IMG/VR virus record: IMGVR_UViG_3300021963_000480
Location: 1 to 29,602 of that record
Origin: a virus
Length of the DNA: 29,602 nt
Strand: one strand, 5' to 3'
In this document: one piece after another, positions 24,167-24,480 of the stretch
Layout of the letters: the number at the start of each line of letters is the position of its first letter
Numbering within the stretch: position 1 is the stretch's first letter
Notes under the pieces: generated by a model
Told to the model about the DNA's origin: nothing
The model's database searches: none
The model's input: the letters and a program-made list of their open reading frames with translations, nothing else
Position numbers and translations under genes: made by a program

Positions 24167-24480
24167 TTACTTGTTCATTACATACATAGTAACTTCAACA
24201 TTATGTTAACGGTAGGCTCTTTATCCATACCTTCAATATGTTTCCATATTGTTCAGACTATATCATCAAGAGATAAATCTCTTGTTGGGCGCTCTTGTCA
24301 GCCTCATCACTGGTCTAGTGGTACGCTGTTAGTCGTTGAACCTTCTAAATATTCCTACTTAGCTTGGCTGCTGATTGTCTTTAACTTAATAATAAGAGTT
24401 TCCAGCAATTCACCCAATTTTATTTGGACTTAAAACGTTAATCCAAAGCGCATTTCAGTAGCAGCTGGTTTTGTCCACAT
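24167..24480 (-). CDS. pqqA: PqqA-like peptide gene split by a group I intron (exons 24480-24441 and 24198-24167)
   Basis: Exon 1 (40 nt) gives [13 protein letters not shown] plus the first base of codon 14. Exon 2 (32 nt) supplies the rest of the Phe codon and then EVTMYVMNK and a TAA. The 23-residue product matches PqqA, the precursor peptide of pyrroloquinoline quinone, with the cross-linked pair Glu15 and Tyr19 in E-V-T-M-Y. Without splicing, translation stops after three more codons. AAAGGAGAACTACT precedes the ATG. The gene has its own promoter (P8) and terminator. No pqqB-E genes are in the window, so host enzymes would be needed, or the peptide has another role. Confidence 0.88.
24199..24440 (-). 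ncRNA. Group I intron (242 nt, no internal ORF)
   Basis: P1: exon UUUGGAU (24447-24441) pairs with the guide GUCCAAA (24429-24423) with a U-G wobble at the splice site. P10: exon 2 UUGAA pairs with UUUAA just 5' of that guide. P element: GGGTGAATTGCTGGAAACTC (24415-24396). Q: GACAATCAGCAGCC (from 24379), with GCUG/CAGC forming P4. R: GTTCAACGACTA (24341-24330). S: GATATAGTCTGAAC (24264-24251), with GUUCA/UGAAC and GACUA/UAGUC forming P7. P8 hairpin is at 24284-24267 and a GAAA-capped P9 hairpin at 24250-24235. Omega-G is 24199. Small, ORF-less and complete. Confidence 0.94.

Follow-up and report, generated by a model that had tools for sequence, protein, structure and literature searches.

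How a phage peptide gene comes to be split by an intron several times its own length, and by which means an intron without a reading frame moves from phage to phage, are the questions raised by the pqqA locus of the viral record IMGVR_UViG_3300021963_000480 (IMG/VR), which was analysed over its 29,602 nt (hereafter the window). A preliminary description, made from the letters alone, had placed a group I intron within pqqA, and this is borne out at the level of the sequence: by every sequence-level feature examined, the insertion would belong to the group I introns. The features of the locus are compiled in Table 1. Read on the minus strand from 24480 to 24167, the elements follow each other in the order AAAGGAG, ATGTGGACAAAACCAGCTGCTACTGAAATGCGCTTTGGAT, 242 nt and TTGAAGTTACTATGTATGTAATGAACAAGTAA. 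The intron is 3.4 times as long as its host coding sequence (242/72), i.e. less than the nearly fourfold length initially given.

Table 1. Features of the split pqqA locus and the adjoining HNH gene in the window
Feature	Position	Strand	Remarks
pqqA, split gene	24167-24480	minus	72-nt CDS once the exons are joined, 23 residues
Ribosome-binding site AAAGGAG	about 24488-24494	minus	just 5' of exon 1
pqqA exon 1, 40 nt	24441..24480	minus	codons 1-13 and first base of codon 14; intronless L001 reads identically
Group I intron, 242 nt	24199..24440	minus	no ORF of its own; terminal G24199; Rfam, homologues, compensatory pairs
Internal guide sequence GUCCAAA	24423..24429	minus	P1 with exon-1 UUUGGAU (24441-24447), U-G at the 5' splice site
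P10 intron strand UUUAA	24430..24434	minus	pairs with UUGAA opening exon 2 (24194-24198)
UAA stop in frame with exon 1	24430-24432	minus	within the P10 intron strand
P7 5' strand GACUA	24330..24334	minus	3' strand UAGUC 24256-24260; guanosine-site helix
pqqA exon 2, 32 nt	24167..24198	minus	codes for the E-V-T-M-Y core and the C terminus
Terminator-like hairpin AAAAAGGGCTTCGGCCCTTTTT	24107..24128	minus	between pqqA and HNH gene; seen in the sequence directly
Free-standing HNH homing-endonuclease-like gene, 164 aa	23564..24058	minus	109 bp downstream of exon 2; PHROG 655

The predicted cuts, after U24441 and after G24199, would yield the 72-nt coding sequence with a ligated junction in which ...CGCTTTGGAT is followed directly by TTGAAGTTAC. 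The joined exons score 42.4 bits against Pfam PqqA (curated cut-off 21.1) and 40.4 bits against NCBIfam TIGR02107 (curated cut-off 20) and, with the E-V-T-x-Y core in place, qualify as a PqqA precursor peptide, so that the splice sites and the 23-residue product originally predicted hold up. The unspliced genome reaches a PqqA score of 20.1 bits, i.e. below the cut-off, and the unspliced message of the window encodes a 16-residue peptide followed by a stop. The intron thus defeats gene annotation, as neither exon alone is called PqqA.

A covariance-model search had been suggested as a check, and Rfam Intron_gpI (RF00028) indeed matches at 24472-24234 on the minus strand over model positions 1-253 of 253, with 95.8 bits (E 8.7e-24) at a gathering threshold of 50 bits; it is the sole Rfam match within the window. 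IMG/VR was scanned with two patterns, namely exon 2 without a preceding Phe codon and exon 1 followed by a wrong codon. Among these unequally sampled and related contigs, 11 others contain a complete homologous intron at the identical base, which gives 10 distinct haplotypes including the window, and two further carriers (L230, L232) end inside the intron; L226, which matches the window at 100% identity over 8.1 kb, and L165, from the same contig, were not counted as independent. The complete copies are 231-278 nt long and 75-97% identical to the window intron, four of them (L229, L221, L216 and L222) also exceed the Intron_gpI cut-off, and every one restores a PqqA on joining. Of 80 loci anchored on RegA, from which records very near the window may be missing, 31 have an uninterrupted pqqA in the corresponding position. 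The closest intronless relative, L001, is 90.4% identical to the window over 4.6 kb, the alignment breaking at 24440, the first base of the intron; it encodes the same 23-residue peptide and has neither intron nor HNH gene. In L001-L007 the encoded peptide is exactly the predicted spliced peptide, i.e. in these and other intronless relatives the exons are joined just as reconstructed. Because intact pqqA genes lie at the same place in relatives, homologous introns occur in 11 contigs and compensatory changes are found, chance is excluded, and the split of pqqA is confirmed as real and exact.

A non-exhaustive search of bacterial genome contigs with one pattern gave seven matches, none of them a PqqA, and plasmids gave no match to a split pqqA. 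L231, a match to the exon-1 pattern, was rejected as an intron carrier, its pqqA having the C-terminal half replaced: on the minus strand from 2583 the N-terminal half (MWTKPEAVEMRYG) enters an unrelated short frame without E-V-T-x-Y, which looks like a precursor that has decayed or changed. The matches in L243 and L244 are due to chance.

The RNA structure was compared across the 10 haplotypes using 66 pairs (P1, P3-P9.1 and P10). Paired cells amount to 97.3%, as compared to 86.0% in shuffles and 31-43% when the partners are slid by 1-3 columns, the structure having been drawn from the window sequence, which biases the comparison with the slid versions and leaves the double changes unaffected. 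Changes on both sides of a pair number 23 versus 12.1 in shuffles, and none of 500 shuffles matches the observed structure on any of five measures. The U-G pair at the 5' splice site and the final intron G are present in 10/10 haplotypes and P10 is 98% paired, which upholds the P1 with its U-G wobble and the P10 of the preliminary description. P7 is identical in 10/10 haplotypes and, being invariant, gives no covariation information. The wobble base of Gly13 in exon 1 and its partner in the guide form A-U, U-A, G-C or C-G pairs in different phages, i.e. the codons GGA, GGT, GGG and GGC are matched with guide U, A, C and G, respectively. As this pair occurs in all four Watson-Crick forms, exon and guide have co-changed through all four glycine codons. 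Introns of subgroup IA possess an extra P7.1 arm (IA2 also P7.2) between P7 and P3; here, one extended, compensated arm (helices 9 and 10) is seen rather than clearly two. Every copy has an in-frame stop at intron nucleotides 6-11, spelled TAA, TAG or TGA. Such early stops are frequent among group I introns and have been ascribed to shielding of the folding from ribosomes (PMC3984707).

Neither the window intron nor any complete copy carries an ORF, and an endonuclease inside the intron was therefore rejected. The gene next to exon 2 encodes a protein that matches PHROG 655 "homing endonuclease" over nearly its whole 164 aa (5.2e-15) and scores 20.4 bits against Pfam HNH, just below the cut-off of 21.4; named phage members of PHROG 655 are about 34-38% identical to it in the best full-length matches. 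The arrangement of collaborative homing, i.e. an intron without an endonuclease gene and an adjacent free-standing endonuclease gene, is present. No ribosome-binding site is evident ahead of the HNH ATG. A T4 late promoter motif, TATAAATA (24064-24071), was rejected as a promoter of the gene, since it occurs in six copies in the window versus 4.1 by chance and lies too near the ATG, and the hairpin that separates pqqA from the HNH gene was not picked up by a consensus scan.

Fifty loci with HNH relatives were found using the HNH protein alone as query. All relatives with more than about 46% identity over at least 145 residues lie 38-165 bp downstream of a pqqA, which either bears the intron and is on the same strand or is intact and on the same or the opposite strand; seven distinct close relatives adjoin an intact pqqA. 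In L152 (10666-10871) two tandem intact pqqA genes, 134 bp apart, stand beside a convergent HNH gene. Among loci gathered without the HNH protein as query, the HNH gene is found beside an intron-bearing pqqA in 7/9 haplotypes with enough downstream sequence versus 2/92 intact loci (Fisher 7e-8, with loci treated as independent though the phages are related). It is missing beside the intron in L221 and in L218/L219, and therefore is not required for persistence of the intron. In the HNH tree the genes at pqqA fall on one side of a branch with weak support (55/85). Within this group, neighbours of intron-bearing and of intact pqqA do not separate, L216/L222 (intron) nesting with seven beside intact pqqA (100/99). 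The HNH genes have also diverged far more (about 50%) than the introns have. Intermixing and divergence together imply that the pairings have been re-made or that the HNH gene evolves fast, and the HNH gene, like the intron, moves horizontally. The earlier idea that the conserved pqqA core is the target of homing is supported, with the addition, absent from the preliminary description, that the likely homing endonuclease is encoded outside the intron, by the downstream HNH gene, whose family sits beside pqqA even without an intron. Resistance of the target through changes in HNH-bearing intact pqqA genes (CTT or GCT for ATG in E-V-T-x-Y) was considered and set aside: it is suggestive, yet the changes are shared by L009-L011, which lack the HNH gene, and independent cases are too few.

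The intron has a history of its own as well. Window and L221 are 97.1% identical in the intron, as compared to 82.9% in regA and 82.5% in gp62; block by block, identity stays at 96-97% between +17 and about +317, as against mostly 68-87% where the flanks can be aligned. In round figures, an intron identity of 97% contrasts with 81-88% in the flanks of the phages compared. The flanks of the window are closer to the intronless L001 (regA 91%, spacer 94%), whereas its codons around the site (TTT GGA TTT ... TAT) match L221 and not this closer relative. Such a pattern is what intron transfer with co-conversion of the flanking exon would leave; selection on the guide-pairing exon bases in intron-bearing genes may explain TTT GGA, but not TAT. 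Judged by these identities, the intron moves horizontally.

Exchange can be followed most closely between near-identical phages. L219, without the HNH gene, and L223, with it, have 12 differences over about 8 kb outside one divergent patch, which extends from +260 (3' part of the intron, P9.1) through exon 2 to the HNH stop and comprises 45 nt inserted at the end of the intron, altered positions in exon 2 and in the spacer, and the HNH gene that only one of the two phages possesses. L218 and L220 differ by the same patch, with zero differences outside over 2.7 kb, and in L224 it begins earlier, at +221 (P9). Because the patch starts differ, gain (or loss) of the HNH gene came with an exchange reaching varied distances into the intron. 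The patch may be regarded as a footprint of the homing type, such as the repair of a break at pqqA is expected to produce, and lends indirect support to the proposed cutting of the intronless allele; it testifies to exchange rather than to the initiating protein or the direction. The 45-nt insertion lies before the last intron bases of L220, L223 and L224 and could form a hairpin (CAGGC/GCCTG); it is restricted to the HNH-bearing copies of that lineage, being absent from the HNH-less L218/L219 and from L217 and L225, which bear the HNH gene.

Thus, we propose, with a probability of roughly three in four, that pqqA is interrupted by a self-splicing group I intron which has most likely spread via the adjacent HNH endonuclease, i.e. 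by collaborative homing. Exon-1 UUUGGAU would pair with the guide to form P1, a guanosine bound at P7 would attack after the U-G pair, and ligation to exon 2, kept in place by P10, would give an unchanged 23-residue PqqA, which may then serve as a substrate for the host's own PQQ enzymes. An unspliced message would stop two to three codons into the intron, so that ribosomes would be kept out of the ribozyme core. The target of the HNH endonuclease would be intronless pqqA, cut close to where the intron inserts, the intron would destroy the cut site in its own genome, and homologous repair, most likely HNH-driven, would spread the intron among phages. We may even speculate, at odds that we consider low, that pqqA, intron and HNH gene constitute a homing cassette driving an auxiliary metabolic gene through phage populations, in which the conserved core of the 23-codon gene would be the target, repair would carry pqqA along and the intron would be the immunity element.

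The excess of HNH genes beside intron-bearing pqqA, the patch running from within the intron to the HNH stop, and the stronger conservation of the intron than of its flanks between lineages render it unlikely that the intron is old and inherited and has been shuffled by ordinary phage recombination, the HNH protein targeting something else or homing regardless of the intron. Such a history would nevertheless account for the introns of L221 and L218/L219 that stand without an HNH gene, for the disagreement between intron and HNH histories, and for the HNH relatives that adjoin psbA/psbD and tmRNA genes, at which no intron turned up. The HNH gene might also once have been borne by the intron, as in ordinary intron homing, and later have left it or been replaced by a free-standing gene; endonuclease turnover has been suggested for other phages (PMC10448857), HNH turnover is visible here, and the introns of all copies lack an ORF. 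As no complete copy retains an ORF remnant or an intron-borne HNH gene and as HNH genes adjoin intact pqqA in seven distinct cases, we regard this origin as distinctly improbable.

A regulatory switch, in which splicing efficiency would set amount and timing of PqqA, appears very improbable: the unspliced message would give a peptide of 15-16 residues without the E-V-T-x-Y core, as a switch would have it, but early in-frame stops are explained by the folding protection mentioned above (PMC3984707) and many close relatives do without the intron. An assembly artefact or a chance fold can practically be dismissed, since the same site is occupied in 11 other contigs from several metagenomes, compensatory changes and clean empty sites are found, and no point in favour emerged.

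The gene neighbourhood is of the T4-like phage type (RegA, clamp-loader small subunit, Hsp20 and a gp44-like clamp loader); DNA polymerase, UvsX and a helicase, read from ORFs, are also present. The nearest named gp44 relatives, from Prochlorococcus phage P-TIM68 and Methylophilales phage Melnitz, are only about 60% identical. Since intact pqqA is found in isolated Methylophilales phages of several kinds, mostly unannotated or hypothetical, a methylotroph host is likely, and the hosts are probably methanol-using bacteria. In five of these isolates (MT375522, KX815270, MW452941, OP830906 and OP830907) the intact pqqA lies where no gene is annotated. The window also contains a second endonuclease-like gene (9202-9690, minus strand, PHROG 1111), which adjoins the DNA polymerase gene. 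In cyanophage contigs, HNH relatives lie between psbA and an apparent psbD (L179, 1831-3585; L180, L184, L186, L189, L182-L185 and L198-L203), so that this family of enzymes has repeatedly taken up a place next to metabolic genes of host origin; a PhotoRC-II RNA precedes psbA in L179, L180, L184, L186 and L189. Matches to tmRNA, betaproteobacterial-type or permuted, occur in the phage contigs L192 (2083-2424), L195 (2638-2985), L174 (5944-6292) and L166 (3707-4003), and in L192 and L195 the tmRNA adjoins an HNH gene that belongs, broadly, to this family.

A literature search confined to open-licence papers found no description of an intron in pqqA, in agreement with the preliminary description; as far as this literature shows, no pqqA intron had been described before the present one, which sits in a coding sequence of only 72 nt. 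One small locus displays, in a natural population, all four states, i.e. with and without intron and with and without HNH gene, as well as exchange patches between near-identical phages, and how free-standing endonucleases and introns come together thus becomes directly testable.

Phage pqqA itself is already known: for the Lake Baikal methylotroph phage gene (VP_266), which encodes PqqA as here and for which an intron was not reported, a raised PQQ supply for methanol dehydrogenase has been proposed (PMC7678222). Introns mobilised, or thought to be mobilised, by a neighbouring free-standing homing endonuclease gene (HEG) are likewise found in phage T4, where MobE acts in trans on the nrdB intron, and in the terminase genes of T3/T7-like phages and ICP1 with their adjacent HEGs (PMC2988022, PMC10448857), and collaborative homing has been discussed for the latter two (PMC10448857); unlike pqqA, their host genes serve nucleotide metabolism, replication or packaging. 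Collaborative homing was defined for the psbA intron of cyanophage S-PM2 and F-CphI (Zeng, Bonocora and Shub 2009, in PMC6083498). As this system is presented there, it resembles the pqqA locus in that an auxiliary metabolic gene of a T4-like phage is concerned and the endonuclease gene is adjacent to, and outside, the intron. It differs in its host gene, a 1.1-kb protein gene rather than a 72-nt peptide gene, in the Endo VII motif of F-CphI as opposed to HNH, and in that cleavage is proven for F-CphI, whereas we infer it for the HNH protein, which, unlike F-CphI in that account, also accompanies the intact target gene in several phages. Taken together, psbA and pqqA indicate that auxiliary metabolic genes are among the sites where homing elements settle, which connects selfish DNA with the dissemination of phage genes altering host metabolism.
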